From NCBI GenBank assembly GCA_017439185.1, contig JAFRTM010000017.1:1-50642 (forward strand): 50,642 bases of DNA. The letters are read 5' to 3'. Within the stretch, counting starts at the first letter, position 1. Each line of letters starts with the position of its first letter. The DNA is from Bacteroidales bacterium (GTDB lineage Bacteria; Bacteroidota; Bacteroidia; Bacteroidales; P3). Under the pieces are notes generated by a model that worked only from the letters and a program-made list of their open reading frames with translations, did not search any database and had not been told where the DNA came from. The translations under genes were made by a program, and so were the position numbers. Below are positions 560-31,847 of the stretch, in pieces.

Positions 560-2923
560 TCAGTAGGAGAAGTTGATGCCGAAACAGCCCATGATGGGGA
601 GCTGGTTGACGCGCTCGAAGGTTACACGGTTGAAGTAGAAGATGTTTTGACGGGAATAGACGTTGGTGACGCTGGCGTTGAGGGTGAGGATGCAGCGTTT
701 GCCGAGGGAGAACTTGCGTTTGACGCCGAGGTCGAGGCGGTGATAGGCGGGCAGGCGGCCCTGGTAGATCTCGGCATAGTGGACACCGAAATCACCGTTG
801 GCAGTGGTGTAGTCGGTGGCGATGCCGTCCTGGTTGAAGAGAATGTTCTCGTAGGCTCCCTGGGTCTGGGTGAAGGGGAAGCCGCTGCCGAAGTTCCATC
901 GGGCGCTGAGTTCCCACTGGCGCTGGGAGCCGAGGGCATAGGTGGCGAGGATGTTGATGGTGTGGCGGCGGTCGTAGTGGGGCGAGTAGGTGCCGTCGGC
1001 ATCGTTGGTGCGGTTGACCCAGCCGAGGGAGTAGGTGCCCCAGACGTAGAGGCGTTCGATCTCGTAGCGTACGCTGAAGTCCATACCGTAGGCCATGCCT
1101 TTCTCATAGACGAAGTCGGTGGAGAGATAGTCGGGCTTCGGGTAGGCGCCGGAGGAGGAGTAGGCGGGGTCGCCGCTGTAGATCTTGTTGTGGTTCATAT
1201 TGAGGAGCTGGGTAAAGGCTTTGAGGTAACCTTCGAGGTTGAAGGCGAGGTGACGGTTGAGGTCGTATTCGGCACCCACCACCAGATGCCAGGCGTTCTG
1301 CTTGCAGCTCTTGACCTGGTTGCCGAGGAACTTGGCACGGTTGAGGTCGCCGGTGGCGGTGAGGAATCCCGAGAAGAGGTTGACGATGTCGTTGTCGGAC
1401 CGGGCGTCGAGGAGTATCTGGCTATAGCGGCCGCCGGCAAACTTGAAACGGAGGTGGTCGGTGGCGTTGATCTTGGCTGCCAGACGAGGTTCGAGGCTGT
1501 GTTCCTTGAGCGAGGTATAGAAGATGTAGCGCACTCCCGGGTCGAGGAGCACGCGGTCGGAGAAGTTGAGCTTCATGGTGGCGTAGGCCGAGATGTTGGT
1601 GGTGTAGGTGGATTGCTCGACGGAGTTGCCGTACTGGTTGGTGAACTGGTACTTGGTGGCGTAGCCTTCCATGCTCAAGCCCGCTTTGAGGCGGTGTTTG
1701 CCTAAAAAGTTGGTAACGTTGAGGCTGGCATTAAATCCGCTGACGCTGCTGAACTTGTCGGCCTCGGCGCCGTCGCTCGGGGTGTCGTCGAGGGTTATCT
1801 TGTAGTTGGAGTAGGCCACCGTACCGTCGAGGAGTGCCGAGGTGCCGGTGACGGCCACAAAGTTGGTGCCCGCTCCCCAGTTGACCCAATGGTAGTCGGC
1901 GATAGACTGGTAGTTGTTGACGCGGTCGTCATAGCGGAAGCCGAAGAGGTTCCACTTGGAGCCGTTGCCCGAGTTGAGGCTGAGTTTGCCGTAGGCGTCG
2001 ATAAAGTCGAACGGCAGCCCCCCTTTGACGTAGGGGTATATCCACTGCGACGTCTTGGAGAGGTATGAGCCCTTGGCGGCGAGGAGGTAGGTGAGGGTGC
2101 TCTTGCTTTCGGCCTTCTCGCGTTTGAGAGGTCCTTCGAGGATGAGGTTGGCGCCGAAAGTGTTGAGGCCCACCTGACCCGAGTGGCGTTTCTTGTTGCC
2201 GTCGCGGGTGGTGATGTCCATCACCGAGGAGAGCCGGCCGCCGTATTCGGCGCCGAAGCCTCCGGTGTAGATGTCGGCGTTGAGGATGATGTCGGTCTCG
2301 AAGATAGAGTAGAGGCCGATGGAGTGGAAGGGGTTATAGACGATCATGCCGTCGATGAGGCAGAGGTTCTGGATCATAGAGCCGCCGCGGATGTAGAGCT
2401 GACCACCCTGGTCGCCGGTGGAGTTGACACCCGGCAGGACCTGCATATACTGGGCGATGTCGGCCTGGCCGCCGATGGAAGGCATCTGCTGGATTTGGGT
2501 GGCGGTGATCTTCTCGACCGACACCTGGGTTTCCACCTTACGCTCCTCCATACGGTTACCGGTGATGACCACATCCTTGAGCATCTGGGCAGTCTCTTTG
2601 AGCTTGATGTTGAGGGTCATGGTCTTGTGGTTGGCGAGGTCCAGCGGCTGGGTATAGTTCTCGTAGCCCACATACTTGACGACGAGGGTGTAAGACCCGT
2701 CGGGGATCTTGTTGATGAGGAAGAAGCCGTTGATATCAGTTTGGGCGGCATGTTTGGTGCCTTCGATGAGCACGTTGGCGAAAGGGATGGCCTCGCCCGA
2801 GGCGTCGTCGTAGAGGACACCCTTGACGGTGTTCTGGGCGGTAGCGGAGAGGGAGCAAGCGAGCAGCAGCAAAGGCAGGAGGAGTAGTCGGGCGGCAGAG
2901 CGGATTCTATTGACAAAAGACAT
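560..2923 (-). CDS. TonB-dependent receptor with N-terminal carboxypeptidase-regulatory-like domain
   Basis: Outer-membrane active transporter, 787 residues; the substrate cannot be read from the sequence. An N-terminal signal peptide ends near SLSATAQ. It is followed by a CarboxypepD-reg-like beta sandwich (about 32-115, with VKGVLYDDASGEAIPFANV) and a plug domain (about 120-240, with QMPSIGGQADIAQYMQVLPG and a YIRGG motif). A long 22-strand-type barrel ends in a C-terminal aromatic residue (NFSY), as outer-membrane barrels usually do. No SusD partner is adjacent, so this is not a classic SusCD pair. The start lies 17 bp after the holA stop, so the two are probably co-transcribed. The G-rich + strand here also produces long antisense open frames that I regard as shadows. 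Confidence 0.93.
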   Translation of the reverse strand: MSFVNRIRSAARLLLLPLLLLACSLSATAQNTVKGVLYDDASGEAIPFANVLIEGTKHAAQTDINGFFLINKIPDGSYTLVVKYVGYENYTQPLDLANHKTMTLNIKLKETAQMLKDVVITGNRMEERKVETQVSVEKITATQIQQMPSIGGQADIAQYMQVLPGVNSTGDQGGQLYIRGGSMIQNLCLIDGMIVYNPFHSIGLYSIFETDIILNADIYTGGFGAEYGGRLSSVMDITTRDGNKKRHSGQVGLNTFGANLILEGPLKREKAESKSTLTYLLAAKGSYLSKTSQWIYPYVKGGLPFDFIDAYGKLSLNSGNGSKWNLFGFRYDDRVNNYQSIADYHWVNWGAGTNFVAVTGTSALLDGTVAYSNYKITLDDTPSDGAEADKFSSVSGFNASLNVTNFLGKHRLKAGLSMEGYATKYQFTNQYGNSVEQSTYTTNISAYATMKLNFSDRVLLDPGVRYIFYTSLKEHSLEPRLAAKINATDHLRFKFAGGRYSQILLDARSDNDIVNLFSGFLTATGDLNRAKFLGNQVKSCKQNAWHLVVGAEYDLNRHLAFNLEGYLKAFTQLLNMNHNKIYSGDPAYSSSGAYPKPDYLSTDFVYEKGMAYGMDFSVRYEIERLYVWGTYSLGWVNRTNDADGTYSPHYDRRHTINILATYALGSQRQWELSARWNFGSGFPFTQTQGAYENILFNQDGIATDYTTANGDFGVHYAEIYQGRLPAYHRLDLGVKRKFSLGKRCILTLNASVTNVYSRQNIFYFNRVTFERVNQLPIMGCFGINFSY

Positions 2924-6016: not shown

Positions 6017-6625
6017 ATGTTTGATATAAAGAATATTATAACACGATTTGGGTTACCGTGCATCATGGTACTATTGCTGACGGGAGCCCTTGTCGCCCCC
6101 CTTTCGTCCTCGGCACAGCGAAAAGAGCTGCCCGAAGAGTGGAGCAAAACCCACATGATCATGTGGGGCCTTGGAGCTTCGGTAGCGCCGCAGTGGTCGT
6201 TCGGCATCACCTACGGGCAGGTGCAGATACTGGGATGGTATGTGAGTGCGTGGACCGGCACCGGCTACCACTACAACGGGGACTACCTGCTCAACTACAG
6301 CGGATGGGTGGAAGGCGACTATCCCAACAGGGAGGACTCCTACAACGGCCGCATATCCAAGTCGCGCTTTTCCATAACCGGAGGAATGCTTTTCCGCACG
6401 ATAAAGCCCTTGTGGGGTTATGTCGGAACAGGGTGGAGCTACCGCAGCGTGCTGTTCGGCACCGAGAGCGGCAACTGGCTGAAGTCGCAGGAGTACTCGG
6501 CTTCGGGCATAGCCGTAGAGGCTGGCCTCATCTACAACTACCGCCGAGTGGTGTTCAGCCTTGGCTTCTCGACCATAGGATTCAAATACATCGACGGCCG
6601 TGCAGGAATCGGTTTCACATTCTAA
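6017..6625 (+). CDS. Exported outer-membrane beta-barrel-like protein
   Basis: A 202-residue protein with a signal peptide ending near SSSAQ. It is followed by alternating Gly/aromatic beta strands such as SFGITYGQVQILGWYVSAWTGTGY and a C-terminal AGIGFTF, which ends in Phe as small outer-membrane barrels do. I recognise no specific family. It is the first gene after a good Bacteroidetes promoter, and the FISUMP-like lipoprotein gene follows after 13 bp, so they probably form an operon and may work together at the surface. Confidence 0.7.
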   Translation: MFDIKNIITRFGLPCIMVLLLTGALVAPLSSSAQRKELPEEWSKTHMIMWGLGASVAPQWSFGITYGQVQILGWYVSAWTGTGYHYNGDYLLNYSGWVEGDYPNREDSYNGRISKSRFSITGGMLFRTIKPLWGYVGTGWSYRSVLFGTESGNWLKSQEYSASGIAVEAGLIYNYRRVVFSLGFSTIGFKYIDGRAGIGFTF

Positions 6626-6638
6626 CATCAGGAATCAA

Positions 6639-7496
6639 ATGAAAAAGACAGCAACAATAATAGTTTCGATTGTCACACTTCTTGCCGTGTCGTGTACCAA
6701 GGACCCCCAAGCCCCCGAACGCGGCACCGCCCTCGCCTACCGTACGGCCGGCGAGTTCTCGGTAAGCGAGAACTTGAAGGTGAGGTTTTCGCCGGGCAAC
6801 CTGCAATATCGTGCAACCACCCATGAATTCAGGTTCGCCGAGCACCAATGGGACTATATAGGAGACGACAATATCAACATAGGGTCCAACTACGACGGAT
6901 GGATAGACCTCTTCGGGTGGGGAACCTCGGGATTTATGATTGCGCCCTACACCTCGACCCAAGACCCCGACGCATACACCAACGACGGCAACTCGGCCAC
7001 CAACAACAACTACGACTGGGGTGTGTTCAACGCCATAGTCAACGGAGGAAACACCCAAGGAGCGTGGAGAACGCTCAGCTCCGAGGAATGGGAATACCTG
7101 CTTGACGGACGCGAGAAAGCCGACCAGAAAGTAGCTCCCGCCCTGGTGTGCGACGTGCCAGGCATCGTGATTCTGTCAGACTATTTCGCAGTGCCCGACA
7201 GTTGTGTGTTTGCCGCAACCTTCGACAACGGATTCGAGTCTAACATATACGACGAACACTTCTGGAACAAGATGGCGGCGGCAGGTGCAGTATTTCTGCC
7301 CGCAGCCGGATATAGAGACGGCGCCGTAATACTCGACTGCGACGAATATGGAGCCTATTGGTCAACCACGTTCAACCCGACACACCAGGCTTTTGCCGTG
7401 TGCTTCTCGCCTTACCAGATAAGTATTCCGCTGCTTGCGAACCAGAACTTCTACGGTAACTCGGTACGTCTGGTACAGAATATCACAGAAGATTAA
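6639..7496 (+). CDS. FISUMP-like lipoprotein
   Basis: A 285-residue lipoprotein (lipobox LLAVSC) with a compact domain of the type VRFSPGNLQY...FAEHQWDYIG...W...LFGWGTSG...WRTLSSEEWEYLL...FLPAAGYRDG...YWSTT...SVRLVQ. This block order recalls FISUMP/FGE-like C-type-lectin folds that are abundant in Bacteroidales; function unknown. The same domain forms the C-terminal half of the transglutaminase protein at 42190-43899. I chose the ATG at 6639 because the signal peptide (MKKTATIIVS) begins there. An earlier in-frame start at 6600 would overlap the previous gene. Confidence 0.72.
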   Translation: MKKTATIIVSIVTLLAVSCTKDPQAPERGTALAYRTAGEFSVSENLKVRFSPGNLQYRATTHEFRFAEHQWDYIGDDNINIGSNYDGWIDLFGWGTSGFMIAPYTSTQDPDAYTNDGNSATNNNYDWGVFNAIVNGGNTQGAWRTLSSEEWEYLLDGREKADQKVAPALVCDVPGIVILSDYFAVPDSCVFAATFDNGFESNIYDEHFWNKMAAAGAVFLPAAGYRDGAVILDCDEYGAYWSTTFNPTHQAFAVCFSPYQISIPLLANQNFYGNSVRLVQNITED

Positions 7497-7507
7497 CCAA
7501 GAAAGAA

Positions 7508-7882
7508 TCACTGTTGCCGTTCAAACTCACGGCGCACAGTCAATCCGGTCTTGTCCTCGTTCAGTATCATCACGCTCTCGTCGAGACGTTCGATGCTGGC
7601 TATTATAGAGGTTCCGCTGATGGTCATTTCCACCACCTTGTCGCTATTGGTCAGGCTATAGGAACCCCGTTCCACCGAACCGTCCATCGTAAAGGAGCAT
7701 GTGCCGTCATCGCCGAACTCCCAAACAGAGCCGATAGCCACGCCCATATTGCTTGCGGCGGTCAGTTTCCACTTGCCGACAATGAGTGCTCCGTTTTCTT
7801 CGGAGTCATTCTTGCAGGCGCAAGTCAACATTGTCACAGCCAAGCAGAGTGCCACAATTGAGAGTCGTATGGTATTTTTCAT
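7508..7882 (-). CDS. Small lipocalin-like lipoprotein
   Basis: A 124-residue lipoprotein with lipobox MLTCAC. The mature part starts with the lipocalin-like signature LIVGKWKLTAA and continues with EFGDDGTCSF and GSYSLTN, a pattern common in Bacteroidetes lipocalin-like (DUF4923/5004-type) proteins. The ligand is unknown. I chose the start at 7882 (MKNTIRLS) instead of the frame start at 7906, as the signal peptide begins there. It converges on the FISUMP-like gene with only an 11-bp gap and no visible terminator. It stands alone on its strand. Confidence 0.72.
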   Translation of the reverse strand: MKNTIRLSIVALCLAVTMLTCACKNDSEENGALIVGKWKLTAASNMGVAIGSVWEFGDDGTCSFTMDGSVERGSYSLTNSDKVVEMTISGTSIIASIERLDESVMILNEDKTGLTVRREFERQQ

Positions 7883-7935
7883 ATTTGCCTTATTATATTG
7901 ATACATATTATTAGATATGGACCGTTTCCGAATTG

Positions 7936-8069: not shown

Positions 8070-8099
8070 TTGCCACAATAAAAAAACTTAGTATCTTTG
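8070..8099 (+). promoter_or_regulatory. Promoter of the cobalamin-riboswitch operon
   Basis: TTG at 8070-8072, 19 bp of spacer, then TATCTTTG at 8092-8099. Transcription would begin near 8106, immediately before the riboswitch, giving a leader of about 360 nt ahead of the ATG at 8464. Confidence 0.85.
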
Positions 8100-8114
8100 C
8101 AGTCGATTTGGTTG

Positions 8115-8330
8115 CCGAAAGACGGGTCGTTTTATGTATTAAAATCGTAAAGACCAGTCCGTTAGGCATCAAAAGGGAACCAGGTGAAAATCCTGGGCAG
8201 TCCCGCTGCTGTAAGTTCTACAAAAGCTGCAGCCCAATCTACCAAGTCACTGTGCGGCGCAATAGTCGTGCGGGAAGGCAAGGGCAGCAGAGAACAAGCC
8301 AGAAGACCTGCCAAGTCAAAACTATCGGTA
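8115..8330 (+). ncRNA. Cobalamin (adenosylcobalamin-type) riboswitch
   Basis: Several conserved blocks of the cobalamin riboswitch occur in the right order: AAAGGGAA, CCAGGTGAAAATCCTGG (a helix capped by GTGAAAATC), GCAGTCCCGCTGCTGTAAG, the CACTGTGCGG...GTGCGGGAAGG arm, and the B12 box GCCAGAAGACCTGCC at 8298-8312. No intrinsic terminator is obvious between the aptamer and the ATG at 8464. A short hairpin (acggc/gccgt, 8364-8378) follows, so control at translation is more likely than attenuation. Ends are approximate. Confidence 0.92.
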
Positions 8331-8463
8331 CACGCTTTCGAGGAAAAAGCTCTCCGACAAATTACGGCATTAAGCCGTTGCCGTCGATAAAGACAATCCC
8401 CAGTTTTGCGTGACTATTGCCGATATTGGAATTGGAATTATTAACAATTAAAACAATAACAAT

Positions 8464-10104
8464 ATGGTAAAAAAACTATTTTCTCTCTTTCTGGGATTAG
8501 GCCTGTTGTTCAGTGCAAATGCCCAGACCGAATCTACAATCAGCGCCAACGACATCCTTTATTGGGTAGGCGAAGGCGAGGACCAGGCCATCTTGGTCGT
8601 TGAATTTGGCGAGACCGCACTCGCATGGGGCTACCGCTTTGACGAAGCAGATGGCCCGACCGTTCTCAATATGATTACAGCCATCGATGCTGCCGATCCG
8701 CGTCTCGCATATGCGATAGACTGGGAAAGATATGATGGCGAAAACGATTATTATTCATTCTACTATCATCCTTTGCTGGCAGCACTTACCACATTCCGCT
8801 TCAAGGTTGACGGAGTTCTCGCCGATAGCGATGAAGAATTTTCAGACTATGATGTGGAAGATGAAATGTTGGTAAAAATCAGTGCAAATGCCAATGATGT
8901 ATGGTCGACCACTATTGCACCTGCTACCGTAGCAGTGACTCCCGTAGATGCCACCATTGAGGCTTCCGCCATCCGTTACTGGGTTGGAGAAGGCGCCAAC
9001 AGCGCCGTGATAGCCATCAACTGGGGAGAGCCTGACACTGCACTCGCCTGGGGTCTCCGGTTTGAAGGTTCCATTACAGTGAGCCAGGCCATAAAAGCAC
9101 TTGACTCACTCGAGGACCGCCTTACCTATAATGAGAACAACGACGTTATCACATATAGCGACGGCACCACCACCCTTAACTTCCACGAGGCACCTGAAAG
9201 TTATCTTCAGTTCGTCCTTAACGGTAATGGCCAAGCCGGCTGGAATTCGCAGCTTTCAAACGGTTCTTTCCTCAAAATCGGAGAGTCGGCATTTGGAATG
9301 GGGTATGATTCCACATTGACCTATGGCATGTGGTTCCCTGCCGGCGTGGTATGGCCCACCGCCATCACTCCGGTCAGCGATCCCAACGCACCCGCCGTTG
9401 TTGACGCTACCATCGATATGGACGACATCGTTTACTGGGTAGGCGAAGGCACCAACAAGACCATCCTGGTTGTGAACTGGGCCGACACCTCGCTGGCTTG
9501 GGGTTACAAATTCAATGACGCTTCGGTGGTTCTCTCTGACATTATGGACGACATACAGGAAGCCGACCCGCGCTTTGCATACTCTTTGGACAATTACGGC
9601 TACCTGGCCAACATAACCTTCCAAGAGGGAACCGTAAACCTTGGCATCACACCCGGAAACTATTTTGACCACAAGATCAACGGTACCTATGGCAGCGGCC
9701 TGACCCAGACCGTTGTCAACGGAGACCTCAACATGTGGGCAGACCCTGCAGCAGGAGTGGCTATCGACAGCAGCTACTATGACGGCTGGGGCTGGTCGTA
9801 CTCGTACGCCTACCCGATGACCATCACTCCGGTAAGCGTACCGAGACCGGGCAGCATCAGCGAGGCAGAGGCAGTGGAGATGAACGTCTATCCCAATCCT
9901 GCCAACAATGTGCTGAACATCAGCGTGAACGACCTTCAGGAGGCCACCGAGGCTGTGCTGTATGACATGACAGGCCGCAAAGTGGTTGCACAGAATGTAG
10001 AGGCTGGAAATTCGCAGGTGAGCATCGTCACCTCGTCGCTGCCCAATGGAGTTTACATGCTCCGCGTAGGCGGCAAGGTGCAGAAAGTAGCTGTTCGTCA
10101 CTAA
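8464..10104 (+). CDS. T9SS-secreted protein with three YWVGEG repeats, under cobalamin riboswitch control
   Basis: A 546-residue exported protein. The signal peptide ends near FSANA (residue 20). Three homologous repeats of about 150 residues carry YWVGEG at 33-38, 172-177 and 324-329. Each continues with a hydrophobic strand (ILVVEF, VIAINW, ILVVNW), then LAWG[YL][RK]F, a helix with DI/DAADPR, and closes with a T-P-V segment. The last 75 residues, from VYPNPANNVLNISV to VQKVAVRH, are a T9SS type A sorting domain. I do not know a characterised function for the repeat. The riboswitch makes capture of cobalamin or corrinoids at the cell surface the best guess; this is inference. The next gene follows after 16 bp. 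Confidence 0.85.
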   Translation: MVKKLFSLFLGLGLLFSANAQTESTISANDILYWVGEGEDQAILVVEFGETALAWGYRFDEADGPTVLNMITAIDAADPRLAYAIDWERYDGENDYYSFYYHPLLAALTTFRFKVDGVLADSDEEFSDYDVEDEMLVKISANANDVWSTTIAPATVAVTPVDATIEASAIRYWVGEGANSAVIAINWGEPDTALAWGLRFEGSITVSQAIKALDSLEDRLTYNENNDVITYSDGTTTLNFHEAPESYLQFVLNGNGQAGWNSQLSNGSFLKIGESAFGMGYDSTLTYGMWFPAGVVWPTAITPVSDPNAPAVVDATIDMDDIVYWVGEGTNKTILVVNWADTSLAWGYKFNDASVVLSDIMDDIQEADPRFAYSLDNYGYLANITFQEGTVNLGITPGNYFDHKINGTYGSGLTQTVVNGDLNMWADPAAGVAIDSSYYDGWGWSYSYAYPMTITPVSVPRPGSISEAEAVEMNVYPNPANNVLNISVNDLQEATEAVLYDMTGRKVVAQNVEAGNSQVSIVTSSLPNGVYMLRVGGKVQKVAVRH

Positions 10105-10120
10105 TTTCCGATTACAGTAG

Positions 10121-11104
10121 ATGAGTAAGAGTTTCTTCATAATCAGTCTGGCGCTGCTCCTCGCCGGTATAAGCCGGGCGCATGGGCAGGGGCCATTCTG
10201 TGGCGTAGTCGGCACCGAAGGATGCACGGCAGTGTCAAACAACGACCCGAGAATCATAGGGTGGGCTACCGGCTGCACGGTAGAATTCGGACCGATTAAC
10301 ATCCAGAATTACCCAGACTCGATAGTGACCTTCGCCAGGACAGGCGACAGCGCCTTGGGACCGGCATGGACCAATGGCGTTTACCATGTTGTACCTCTTG
10401 GCGACGGAGGAAGAGCCACTGTCACTTTCGACGAGCCGATACACAACGTTGACGGTTACGACTTCGCGGTGTATGAGAACTCCAACGACGGACTGTTCCT
10501 CGAACTCGCCTTTGTGGAGGTAAGCTCCGACGGGGAGCATTTTGTGAGGTTCCCCGCCACATCGCTGACGCAGACTGAGACACAAGTTGGCACTTTCGGA
10601 CAGCTGGACGCCACGAATCTGAACAACCTGGCAGGCAAATACAAGGGCGGTTACGGAACCCCTTTTGACTTGAACGAGTTGAGAGACAGTGCAGGAATCG
10701 ACATAAACAATATCACACATGTGAGGGTGGTTGACGTGGTCGGAAGCATCGACCCCGCCTACGGCACCTACGACGCCTATGGACATCTGGTGAACGACCC
10801 CTACCCTACCCCGTTCTATAGCTGTGGTTTCGACTTGGATGCGGTATGCGTGCTGGGAGATCCGAATGCCATCAGAGAGGCTAACTCGCCGATTGTGGAG
10901 TTGTTCCCCAACCCGGCCACCGACAAGATAATGGTGAGATTGAAGAAACCGGTGTCCGTGGCACTCTTTGACTGCACCGGCAGACAAGTGACACAACCGC
11001 GTATGGCCGAGGGCGTTGCAGAGATTGAGGTCTCGATGTTGCCCAATGGAATATATTTCCTGAGGGCTGGCGAGAACTGCCGGAAGGTGGTTGTCAGACA
11101 TTGA
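10121..11104 (+). CDS. T9SS-secreted surface protein, second gene of the cobalamin-riboswitch operon
   Basis: A 327-residue protein with a signal peptide (ending near SRAHGQ). One beta-rich domain contains VYENSNDGLFLELAFVEVS, RFPATSL, NLAGKYKGGYGTPFDLNEL, ITHVRVVDVVGS and GFDLDAVCVLG. This block recurs in secreted surface proteins of Bacteroidetes and in PEP-CTERM proteins of other phyla and has no assigned function that I know. A type A sorting domain (ELFPNPATDKIMV ... RKVVVRH) makes up the last 75 residues. It lies 16 bp after the repeat protein and should share its riboswitch. I infer that it acts with that protein in corrinoid capture, but nothing in the sequence proves ligand binding. 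Confidence 0.82.
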   Translation: MSKSFFIISLALLLAGISRAHGQGPFCGVVGTEGCTAVSNNDPRIIGWATGCTVEFGPINIQNYPDSIVTFARTGDSALGPAWTNGVYHVVPLGDGGRATVTFDEPIHNVDGYDFAVYENSNDGLFLELAFVEVSSDGEHFVRFPATSLTQTETQVGTFGQLDATNLNNLAGKYKGGYGTPFDLNELRDSAGIDINNITHVRVVDVVGSIDPAYGTYDAYGHLVNDPYPTPFYSCGFDLDAVCVLGDPNAIREANSPIVELFPNPATDKIMVRLKKPVSVALFDCTGRQVTQPRMAEGVAEIEVSMLPNGIYFLRAGENCRKVVVRH

Positions 11105-11140: not shown

Positions 11141-11175
11141 GGGAGCGGGCTCTGAGGGGCTCGCTTCCGTTTTTA
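11141..11175 (+). terminator. Terminator of the riboswitch operon
   Basis: A stem (gggagcgggctc / gggctcgcttcc with G-U pairs, loop tgag) is followed by gttttt. Confidence 0.75.
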
Positions 11176-11207
11176 TGCCATGGGGGATTTGGGCATATAG
11201 CAAATTT

Positions 11208-11350
11208 ATGGTTGAGTTATGGTTGAGTTATGGTTGAGTTATGGTTGAGTTATGGTTGAGTTATGGTTGAGTTATGGTTGAGTTATGGTTGAGTTATGGT
11301 TGAGTTATGGTTGAGTTATGGTTGAGTTATGGTTGAGTTATGGTTGAGAT
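11208..11350. repeat. Thirteen tandem copies of an 11-bp unit (atggttgagtt)
   Basis: Twelve perfect copies and a thirteenth ending in -gat form an uninterrupted minisatellite between two + strand genes. Because 11 is not a multiple of 3, every frame cycles through the unit. A TGA occurs in each forward frame and a TAA in each reverse frame every 33 bp, so the block cannot encode protein. Perfect copies suggest recent slippage, and the copy number is probably variable between strains. The rest of the 11105-11437 gap holds only the terminator upstream and nothing recognisable downstream. Confidence 0.97.
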
Positions 11351-15473: not shown

Positions 15474-16937
15474 TTAGCGTACCGTAAACTTATGAGTCTT
15501 ACCGTTCACACGATAGACATACACACCGTGAGGATATTTCGATACGTTTACCACCACCTCGGTCTCGCCGGGAGTCATCACGTATTGTTCCATCTGACGG
15601 CCTTCAATATTATAGATTGTAAGCATTGCGCTCTGGTTGCCTGTCAAATCGTAGGGGATATGCACCTCAGAGACTGCCGGGTTGGGGTAAGCGGGATAGG
15701 TGGTCACATCGGCCACTTTAGGAATAGACAGCACCCAGTTGGAGTCTGCCGGCGGCACGAAATTCACGATAACCCTGTGGTTGTCGTTGAAATGATAACC
15801 TGCAGCATTAAGTGCCGGAGTGGCCAGGTTGTTCCAGCCGTTGGCGGTGTAACGGGGACCGCCCCAACCCCAGTTGAAATGGAACATATTGGTATCGTCA
15901 GGATCAACTCCGTCGCACACGAAAGCGTGACCTGCGTCAACATCAGTGCTGGCATTGTCATAAGCTCCAAACATCACGGGATAACGTTTTTCTATCTCAG
16001 ACTTTACGAGTGACACAAACTGCTTGGTAGTCATATTTTCACGTGACTTATATTGAGCTGCCGGGTATTTGAAATAGGTTTTTAACGGAGTTACGATATT
16101 GGCCTGATTCACATAGGAGCCGCTAGCGTCAATGCCCCAAGACATATTGGACAACACGCCCATGTGGAAACAGAGCTGGGCTGCCGCGTCTTTGTTTTCC
16201 TGTGTCCAGCTGGAGTTCAGAGTGTCACGCATCAGGTCATACCTATATGTTTGCTGAGCGAAGTTGATTGAACCGTTTTGGGTGCCATTGTACGACCACC
16301 ATTTGCTACCTTTTCCGGTATAGGGGTATCTCCAATAGTGGACAATCTGCGACATGGCGAGTGCCACGCATCCTACGGCGCAATGGACAGTCTGGCCATT
16401 CTGTATTTCATAAGGGCACATACCGTTGAATGGATCATCCTGCGACCAGAAGTCTTTCAGCAAGAACTTCCTGGCCTTTGTGCCATTGGCAGTCATCGGA
16501 ATAGAATGGTTCAGCAGATTATCCCACTTCTTCTCTATTTCCATAGAAGCTTCGGTTCCCTCGTTCTGAGCCTGAGAGACCGCAGCTGCCCAACCGTTAA
16601 GCCACCAGTTCATCGACGGAGGCATATTGTCGACGTCCAATGCGCTCTCGTATGAGTAGGACACTATCGGCTCGGCGCTGGTAGAACCGGTAACTATCAC
16701 ATAACCATCTTCTCCGAGATTGAAGATATAGATTGCCGGAACACCTTTCTCTTCGTTCATAATTGTCTTGGCGAGCTTCACCTGAGTCATATCTCCCCAA
16801 ATCTTACCTACCTTCTGCGACCAATAATAGACTCCCACCCTGCGGGCCGTCTCCTGATCGACATCTTCGGCATTTGCGACAAATTGCACACCCACGGTGG
16901 CAAACAACAGCAGTAATGTAACGATTGCTTTTTTCAT
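15474..16937 (-). CDS. C10 family cysteine protease (streptopain/PrtT type) with T9SS sorting domain
   Basis: A secreted thiol protease, 487 residues from the start at 16937 (MKKAIVTLLL); an earlier frame start at 16979 lacks a signal peptide. In order: signal peptide to ANA (23); a Spi-like inhibitory propeptide (about 24-150); the C10 catalytic domain with nucleophile C190 in CAVGCVALAMSQI, H337 in AGHAFVCDG and the NWGWGG block at 355-360; and a type A sorting domain (YPAYPNPAVSEVHIPY ... HKFTVR). Family members process host or other surface proteins after propeptide removal. The T9SS locus at 28-35 kb is its predicted exporter. It is a single-gene unit with its own promoter and terminator. 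Confidence 0.93.
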   Translation of the reverse strand: MKKAIVTLLLLFATVGVQFVANAEDVDQETARRVGVYYWSQKVGKIWGDMTQVKLAKTIMNEEKGVPAIYIFNLGEDGYVIVTGSTSAEPIVSYSYESALDVDNMPPSMNWWLNGWAAAVSQAQNEGTEASMEIEKKWDNLLNHSIPMTANGTKARKFLLKDFWSQDDPFNGMCPYEIQNGQTVHCAVGCVALAMSQIVHYWRYPYTGKGSKWWSYNGTQNGSINFAQQTYRYDLMRDTLNSSWTQENKDAAAQLCFHMGVLSNMSWGIDASGSYVNQANIVTPLKTYFKYPAAQYKSRENMTTKQFVSLVKSEIEKRYPVMFGAYDNASTDVDAGHAFVCDGVDPDDTNMFHFNWGWGGPRYTANGWNNLATPALNAAGYHFNDNHRVIVNFVPPADSNWVLSIPKVADVTTYPAYPNPAVSEVHIPYDLTGNQSAMLTIYNIEGRQMEQYVMTPGETEVVVNVSKYPHGVYVYRVNGKTHKFTVR

Positions 16938-16992
16938 ATTAGTAAAGTATCTGTTTCGTATATTTTGTATTACTTTCACTTATAAAATTGTG

Positions 16993-30155: not shown

Positions 30156-31847
30156 TTATTTCAATCTGAATGTTGCTTTCAGTTTGTGGGTCTGACCATC
30201 AGGCGTCTTCACCACCACATTGTCTATATATACCTTCTGGCCTTTCTTGGCATTCTTCAGTCTGCTTACCATCTCGGGGTTGAAGGAGTTGCCCTGCCCC
30301 GTCAACTCAAACGAGTTGGATCCGGACACCTGGAACTCGAACGAAGTAACCTTCAGTGGAGGCAGCTGGAAGTCGAAGTCATCCATTATTGCATTTATCT
30401 TACCCACTGCAGCCAATGCGTTCTTGTCCACAACATCGCCGTCCTTGAACGAACCAACCTTCAGCACTGGTGCAGGAATCTTCTTGGCACGGAGCAACTG
30501 GGTTCCCATGGTCTTCGTTCCGCCACCGTCCATCTTGGCATCTACACGTATGGTGATCTTACCCATCTTCGAAGCCCTGATGATATAGTCACCAGCCTTT
30601 CCGTTAGGATCTTTGGTAAGCGTAGCGGCTCCTTCTGCCACCACCGGAACCACGTTACGGGAGTCAACACCGGGAACTGAGATCGACACAGGATTGTCGA
30701 TACCGGCATAGACCACGTTCATCTTCGTCAAAGCCACTACGGCAACAGGTGGTGCCACAAAGTAGCTGTCGTCAAACGTATATTCCTCAGCAGGACCGCT
30801 GTCTTTCTTCACATATATGGTACCGTGCACCTTCTTCTCACCAGGAGTAGTGCAAGCTGCCTTATAGGTCACCGAACCGTTCTCATCACTTGTAAGCGTT
30901 GAGCCGTTGACGTTGGCCGTAAAGGTAGCGCGGGAGTCGTATGCTCCGATATTAACCTTGGTCTCATACGTGCCACCCTGAATGATATATGTAGCCGACG
31001 GACGCGAAAGAACCGTCACCTTGTCGAACTTGAAGTCGTCTGCACTGATCTTGTCAAAAAGTTTTTTCAGCACATCGTTCTCAAGGGTCAGAAGCTCACC
31101 TTTCATACGAGCCAGAATAACCATGTCAGCGATGGCAAGTGTACCGTTGAAAGTAAAGTTTTCCCAGTCGAGCGAGTCTTTCTCGGCATTGAGGAATTTG
31201 CCCTCTACCACAAGGCCCATGCTCTTCTGCGGGATTGAATCGTCTCCCAGAATCTTATTCACACTGGCCTTATAATCGAGAACCTTTTTCTTCAGTTTTG
31301 CAGCACGGCAGTTTTCGGCCCCTTTATCCACATCGCTGAAACCGCTTCCATCCTCAGGAGCGAGGAAATATGTGGCTCCACCGTGTGTGTCGTCAGCCTT
31401 GGTCATACAGTCGAACTTGCCTTCTATCAATGCCTTTCTGACAGTATCGTACAATGGCTGCTTGTTCTCATCCATCAGCTTAAGTTTTACGGACTTGCCT
31501 TCGGCATCCGTATAACTGACAGATTGTTGGATGTATGCAAAGAATCCATGTCGCAGGGTATCGATATAGTGCAACAAATCCAGGGTCTCTGCGTGTATCT
31601 GCTTTGCCTTGTCCCAACTCTCTTGGGTCTTCTCGGGGTTGTTCTTGTATGTATCCTCAAAGTTATTGTAAAAGTCCGTCACCTTCTCGCTGATAGCGAT
31701 ATTGGAAACGTTGATGGCGTCACCGACCGTCTTGAAGCCGGCAAGCACCTCCGCCGACACGTTCAGTGCCAACATGGCGGTGTACACGATGTACATCATC
31801 TGTATCATTTTTTGCCTCGGGGTCTCCGGGCAGTTTGTAGCACCCAT
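30156..31847 (-). CDS. gldM: Type IX secretion motor-associated protein GldM/PorM
   Basis: 563 residues, slightly longer than typical members (about 515). The N-terminus MGATNCPETPRQKMIQMMYI leads into the single inner-membrane helix (about 14-35, VYTAMLALNVSAEVLAGF). The long periplasmic part has the expected series of beta domains (SRPSATYIIQGGTYETKVNIGAYD; VYAGIDNPVSISVPGVDS) and ends with a domain that meets the GldKN ring (TPDGQTHKLKATFRLK). With GldL it forms the proton-driven rotary motor. It lies 88 bp after gldL, with an intercistronic stem-loop between. Confidence 0.95.
   Translation of the reverse strand: MGATNCPETPRQKMIQMMYIVYTAMLALNVSAEVLAGFKTVGDAINVSNIAISEKVTDFYNNFEDTYKNNPEKTQESWDKAKQIHAETLDLLHYIDTLRHGFFAYIQQSVSYTDAEGKSVKLKLMDENKQPLYDTVRKALIEGKFDCMTKADDTHGGATYFLAPEDGSGFSDVDKGAENCRAAKLKKKVLDYKASVNKILGDDSIPQKSMGLVVEGKFLNAEKDSLDWENFTFNGTLAIADMVILARMKGELLTLENDVLKKLFDKISADDFKFDKVTVLSRPSATYIIQGGTYETKVNIGAYDSRATFTANVNGSTLTSDENGSVTYKAACTTPGEKKVHGTIYVKKDSGPAEEYTFDDSYFVAPPVAVVALTKMNVVYAGIDNPVSISVPGVDSRNVVPVVAEGAATLTKDPNGKAGDYIIRASKMGKITIRVDAKMDGGGTKTMGTQLLRAKKIPAPVLKVGSFKDGDVVDKNALAAVGKINAIMDDFDFQLPPLKVTSFEFQVSGSNSFELTGQGNSFNPEMVSRLKNAKKGQKVYIDNVVVKTPDGQTHKLKATFRLK

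Follow-up and report, generated by a model that had tools for sequence, protein, structure and literature searches.

The stretch of DNA analyzed here (the window) is 50,642 nt long and represents a complete contig (C2; JAFRTM010000017.1) of a Bacteroidales bacterium, whose genome (GCA_017439185.1) comprises 2.15 Mb in 28 contigs and is 92% complete. The locus of interest is a cobalamin riboswitch followed by two genes, which we refer to as P1 and P2; both encode proteins with a sorting domain of the type IX secretion system (T9SS). Its features are as follows:

8070..8099 (+), Bacteroidota-type promoter, assigned by pattern: TTG at 8070-8072, 19 nt, TATCTTTG at 8092-8099
8106..8316 (+), cobalamin riboswitch aptamer (RF00174) directly 3' of the promoter, assigned by covariance model
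8317..8463 (+), leader from the aptamer to the first start codon, the presumed expression platform
8464..10104 (+), P1 gene, 546 amino acids
8527..8937 (+), P1 repeat 1, assigned by alignment
8938..9387 (+), P1 repeat 2, assigned by alignment
9388..9846 (+), P1 repeat 3, assigned by predicted model (predicted local distance difference test, pLDDT, 97.2)
9886..10086 (+), P1 T9SS type A sorting domain, residues 475-541
10121..11104 (+), P2 gene, 327 amino acids
10190..10876 (+), P2 core, residues 24-252, modelled (pLDDT 90.4), with a conserved NDPxPTPF loop
10901..11080 (+), P2 T9SS type A sorting domain, residues 261-320
11141..11178 (+), terminator-like hairpin (11141-11168) with a T-rich tail

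An earlier note on this DNA had read the locus as a promoter and a cobalamin riboswitch with a B12 box, followed by two co-directional genes for T9SS-exported proteins, and had proposed a search with the Rfam cobalamin model; each of these assignments was borne out. In cmscan, RF00174 matched positions 8106-8316 of the forward strand with 82.4 bits, well above the curated cut-off of 31.5 (E 7e-19), and the B12 box, AAGCCAGAAGACCTGCC, can be read from the sequence at approximately 8296-8312. Positions 8070-8099 fit what we take to be the -33/-7 promoter consensus of Bacteroidota; this pattern occurs 10 times in the window, both strands counted, whereas 20 Markov-simulated sequences average 1.3. 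P1 and P2 lie on the same strand as the riboswitch and are separated by 16 nt. A hairpin scan detected no terminator-like site in the leader. The hairpin at 11141-11168 (12 pairs, 8 of them G-C) is the longest of five terminator-like sites in the 3.5 kb scanned, compared with 3.1 in shuffles; because it begins 36 nt past the end of P2, the riboswitch locus looks like a two-gene unit. Just past this terminator, at 11206-11348, an 11-bp unit, TTATGGTTGAG, occurs 13 times head to tail without a mismatch.

Both proteins have an N-terminus that, judged by eye, resembles a signal peptide, and neither has a lipobox by the same judgment. The sorting domain is the only family above the cut-off in either protein in Pfam and NCBIfam: PF18962 (52.6 bits in P1 and 40.4 in P2; curated cut-off 27) and TIGR04183 (48.8 and 32.6 bits; cut-off 23). 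Consequently, P1 and P2 could not be assigned to DUF4465, BtuG or any named adhesin. The genome encodes SprA (2373 bits, cut-off 200), and the window itself carries a gene for the T9SS motor protein GldM/PorM at 30156-31847 on the reverse strand (TIGR03517, 307.6 bits versus 180), a part of the export machine that P1 and P2 would need. A further protein with a T9SS sorting domain is encoded at 15474-16979 (-), without a cobalamin riboswitch.

We then considered how P2 is distributed with respect to cobalamin riboswitches. Among 295 genomes of the same order, a full-length P2 homologue was found in 83 besides the window genome (one full-length row per genome, E below 1e-27; the weaker rows listed corresponded to sorting tails, and a second, fragmentary row of genome G014 was excluded). 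Mapping RF00174 in these 83 genomes under stricter filters places a riboswitch on the strand of P2, at a distance of 122-3135 nt upstream, in 69 of them; in the 14 exceptions, it is 9.3-9.4 kb upstream (two genomes), elsewhere (nine) or absent (three). These genomes span several megabases and have approximately 1.6 cobalamin riboswitches each, so that by our own arithmetic well under one case of linkage is expected by chance. As a control, we used the 62 weaker matches listed, not counting the window genome's own three; 38 of these, mostly sorting tails, fall in the 83 genomes, and 4 of the 38 are within 6 kb of a riboswitch, two being P1-family genes (G218) and one the gene directly before P2 (G104). 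Homologues that are never linked to cobalamin riboswitches, which the earlier note had named as a result that would speak against its proposal, are thus not what the search returned.

The association extends beyond this order. A scan of named genomes revealed at least 544 P2 relatives among at least 588 candidate stretches, and the 80 loci that we kept range from ruminant-gut Bacteroidales to Winogradskyella, Flavobacterium and Saprospiraceae. They include loci of the cultured Flavobacterium sp. 7A (L235) and Winogradskyella undariae (L215). RF00174 is upstream on the same strand in 24 of the 26 loci submitted to Rfam, a non-random set of 13 of the 14 best-ranked loci (L175, which is short, was left out) and 13 chosen after a pattern scan; in the remaining 54, the riboswitch was judged by a short pattern alone. 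The 80 include four loci, all outside the 26, whose DNA is identical to that of loci already counted in the first set, and relatives come partly from short contigs. One named locus (L233) has two tandem P2 genes behind a single riboswitch-like site, recognized by pattern only. At L151 and L152 (genomes G186 and G082, with 8 and 7 cobalamin riboswitches, respectively), a reading frame of 3027 amino acids lies between the riboswitch and P2.

Read from the P2 neighborhoods, the usual gene order is riboswitch, a variable partner, P2, BtuB and BtuG. Among 82 loci (the 83 less L156, where no gene was called over the match), a BtuB-like gene is near P2 in 51, a BtuG-like gene in 47, either in 55 and both in 43, as called by blastp at E 1e-3 or better against the window genome's own proteins. 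All 67 P2 proteins scanned (alignment A1: 66 of the 82 reading frames, 290-400 amino acids long, plus P0002, the window P2) have the sorting domain. The partner upstream of P2 was scanned in 65 cases (alignment A2: P1, as P0001, and 64 of 74 upstream genes, ten having been dropped by eye as of the wrong size or another gene, with a few unrelated genes retained); 54 have the sorting domain and 34 match DUF4465. DUF4465 corresponds to the BtuJ family, and B12 binding is documented for eight members that were tested (PMC13398666). It is fused to P2 in seven of eight long reading frames checked, out of 16 P2 reading frames outside the 290-400 range. In the named loci, a fusion of P1 repeats to P2 is seen in 37 of 74 (the 80 less six without a called P2 gene), and P1 is a separate upstream gene in 12 more. 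Two genomes of the same family as the window genome, G079 and G183, carry a P2-DUF4465 fusion behind a riboswitch and, on another contig, a riboswitch followed by BtuB and BtuG, which is the same split as in the window genome; a third, G273, has no P2. Because these relatives carry the P2-DUF4465 fusion behind the riboswitch, P1 seems to replace a known B12-binding domain as the partner of P2.

P2 consists of the putative signal peptide, a core and the sorting domain. The best fold match of the core model is the BtuH B12-binding domain, and the model has the fold of a C-terminal B12-binding domain; thus, the P2 core is predicted to be BtuH-like. In sequence the two are far apart: P2 as a single sequence has no detectable homology to BtuH, and its whole-protein profile does not match BtuH up to E 1. 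The profile of the core, searched against the Protein Data Bank (PDB), has BtuH as its top, albeit weak, match (E 0.011 over 46 residues). P1 and P2 as single sequences retrieved only sorting domains and chance matches from PDB sequences. Relatives are 33-46% identical to the window P2 and share a conserved loop just before the last strand (a further alignment, A5, contains 43 relatives from 75 P2 domain rows, 44 of which passed a motif filter). Pfam contains no domain model of the P2 family, which is BtuH-like in predicted fold. P2 could alternatively act as a tether, its jelly-roll binding a surface or host glycan in the manner of CBM32 and holding in place the corrinoid-binding repeats of P1 or a DUF4465 partner. 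We regard this as unlikely: B12-binding BtuH domains rank first both by fold and by sequence profile, P2 already has a sorting domain that would place it at the surface, and P2 is strongly conserved, including the loop.

P1 has three repeats between its putative signal peptide and its sorting domain. Repeat 3, the only one modelled, is predicted to adopt a beta-grasp fold with a hairpin insert after the helix, as in the transcobalamin-like SLBB and DUF4430 domains, and matches the beta domains of transcobalamin, intrinsic factor and haptocorrin. P1 therefore appears to contain three repeats of the transcobalamin-beta-domain type, with the fold predicted for the third. Secreted bacterial proteins of this transcobalamin-like (SLBB) type were predicted to scavenge B12 as early as 2007 (PMC1796856). 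The window P1 repeats do not match the Pfam DUF4430 model (PF14478); among 24 aligned P1-type repeats, nine match it at E 0.01 or better, and two close full-length P1 relatives exceed its cut-off. Profiles of the P1 repeats, and of one relative, retrieved nothing relevant from PDB sequences (alignment A6 contains 81 relatives chosen from 123 repeats). Of the six cobalamin riboswitches in G218, one is followed by a lone P1 protein of two repeats and another by a reading frame of 1466 amino acids that has P1 repeats close to either end (L158/L159).

The earlier note had called both products adhesin-like, a description for which these specific predicted folds, transcobalamin beta domain and BtuH, can now be substituted. 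T9SS cargo often includes adhesins, and corrinoid contact by P1 and P2 is something that we infer; the two proteins might then be surface structures for adhesion or a matrix that are merely co-regulated by B12. We consider this very improbable in view of the family-wide linkage to cobalamin riboswitches and BtuB/BtuG, the B12-binder-like predicted folds of both proteins, and the fusion of P2 to a family whose tested members are B12 binders (PMC13398666).

The window genome has two further cobalamin riboswitches. One, on contig C24, precedes BtuB (E 1.2e-127 to BtuB1 of Bacteroides thetaiotaomicron) and BtuG (E 2.1e-44 to BtuG1), the latter a protein of 358 amino acids that matches only the propeller part of BtuG1. 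The genome also encodes one FecCD permease and two proteins whose B12-binding domain is above the cut-off, and CbiD, the single gene of de novo corrin synthesis searched in this 92% complete genome, was not found. Judging from this gene content, the cell is probably able to take up and use corrinoids and may be unable to make them. The other riboswitch, on contig C15 (G000; L073:6001-6190 and 6396-7703), lies before CoA-transferase-like and MarC-type genes. The former resembles butyryl-CoA:acetate CoA-transferase (TIGR03948, 292.5 bits, below the cut-off of 674.8), and this unusual target may link B12 status with a step in fermentation.

With BtuB and BtuG behind a riboswitch on C24, a cell without BtuB was rejected. 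The module can no longer be described, as in the earlier note, as lacking a TonB receptor: this fails as a property of the system, given the C24 gene and the BtuB-like genes near P2 in relatives. The narrower observation that no BtuB, BtuG or BtuH adjoins the two genes stands insofar as no BtuH-type lipoprotein is adjacent, except that P2 itself has a BtuH-like predicted fold. Elsewhere in the window, a TonB-plug protein of 787 amino acids with a SusC-like N-terminal part is encoded at 560-2923 (-). It was rejected as the partner receptor, being 5 kb away on the opposite strand with no riboswitch beside it and scoring better with SusC/RagA than with TonB-B12 (weak, E 6.8e-5). A small divergent gene at 7508-7906 (-) encodes a product weakly similar to lipocalin-like domains, none above the cut-off. 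The presence of BtuB or BtuG near P2 in 55 of 82 relatives would also be expected if P1-P2 were a decaying remnant of a full BtuB operon, left behind when BtuB and BtuG moved. We give this almost no credence: both reading frames are intact, with sorting domains, riboswitch and terminator, and both same-family genomes that have P2 show the same split.

Taken together, the riboswitch linkage (69 of 83), the predicted B12-binding-domain folds of P1 and P2 and the DUF4465 fusions make it likely that the locus serves as an accessory unit, repressible by cobalamin, for the scavenging of B12 (corrinoids), in which P1 and P2 capture corrinoids outside the cell for BtuG and BtuB. This retains the core of the earlier proposal, a T9SS-exported capture module under cobalamin control, and drops the missing receptor. 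Riboswitch, sorting domains, T9SS machinery, linkages, fusions and the BtuB and BtuG genes are read from sequence. The order of events would be as follows. Low intracellular cobalamin would permit expression of P1 and P2, by analogy with B. thetaiotaomicron operons, in which relief of the riboswitch by low cobalamin was measured (PMC12751083). The proteins would cross the inner membrane via their putative signal peptides and the outer membrane via the T9SS, ending on the cell surface or in the medium, where P1 would display its three repeats of the transcobalamin-beta-domain type and P2 its single BtuH-like domain. There they would bind corrinoids, singly or jointly, and hand them to the C24-encoded BtuG and BtuB, after which a BtuC-type permease would import them. 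In B. thetaiotaomicron, the BtuH domain either forms one chain with the propeller of BtuG1 or is borne on other lipoproteins; in the window genome, the T9SS-tailed P2 supplies a predicted fold like the domain that its BtuG is without.

A more specific reading, which we put forward as speculative and rather doubtful, is that P1 and P2 form a bacterial analogue of transcobalamin or intrinsic factor that closes around one corrinoid, a T9SS-released or -displayed "corrinophore" unloaded at BtuG/BtuB. If so, the P1-repeat-P2 fusion of 37 of the 74 named loci would be its one-chain form.

Parts of the accessory scavenging unit proposed here are already in print, namely the prediction of bacterial SLBB proteins as B12 scavengers (PMC1796856) and T9SS-tailed DUF4465 proteins (PMC12751083). 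The latter study lists the sorting motif IPR026444 in 229 of 824 DUF4465 proteins, so that a T9SS route in place of the lipoprotein route, as suggested in the earlier note, is partly implied there; the discussion of PMC13398666 describes over 70% of the family as lipoproteins and the rest as periplasmic. In the open-access literature, covered mostly by titles and abstracts, we found no description of the P1-P2 module (PMC9723704, PMC6143338 and PMC12578637 included), of a T9SS-exported protein with transcobalamin-type repeats, or of the P2 family. B12 in the gut is contested, and in Bacteroides the proteins known to capture it have, to date, all been lipoproteins of the cell surface. The loci described here point to a widespread second route, in which riboswitch-controlled, T9SS-tailed proteins combine a BtuH-like family with repeats predicted to be shaped like human B12 carriers. 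An unnamed conserved family thereby gains a testable function, the range of bacterial transcobalamin-like domains widens to include surface cargo of Bacteroidota, and there may be a secreted B12 carrier that can be shared.

Compared with known systems, the BtuB-BtuG complex presumably belongs to the same regulon as P1-P2 but is encoded on C24, outside the P1-P2 unit; BtuG is a seven-bladed propeller lipoprotein, and neither P1 nor P2 matches a propeller family in Pfam. P2 is alike in predicted fold to BtuH2 (BT_1956) and to the BtuH domain of BtuG1/BtuGH from B. thetaiotaomicron. Whereas these are anchored at the surface as lipoproteins, P2 has a T9SS sorting domain; it also has no PKD domain or propeller, and a shorter domain (aligned span of 202 model residues versus 276 in the chain); its sequence is beyond the reach of phmmer, and B12 binding by P2 is what we infer from the likeness. 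BtuJ/DUF4465 (PF14717, IPR027828) occupies the same slot as P1, preceding P2 or joined to it downstream of a cobalamin riboswitch, and such partners, like P1, often carry the T9SS sorting domain; however, neither P1 nor P2 matches PF14717, and P1 appears to stand in for it. The predicted fold of the P1 repeats resembles the beta domain of transcobalamin, intrinsic factor and haptocorrin, the SLBB clade and DUF4430. Unlike DUF4430 members, the window repeats fall below Pfam detection, and unlike transcobalamin-type carriers, P1 has tandem repeats, a T9SS sorting domain, a Bacteroidota host and a cobalamin riboswitch. No alpha/alpha toroid family was detected in P1 or P2 with Pfam. In the animal carriers a beta domain and an alpha/alpha toroid enclose the corrinoid; in the analogue considered above the P1 repeats and the P2 domain would do likewise.
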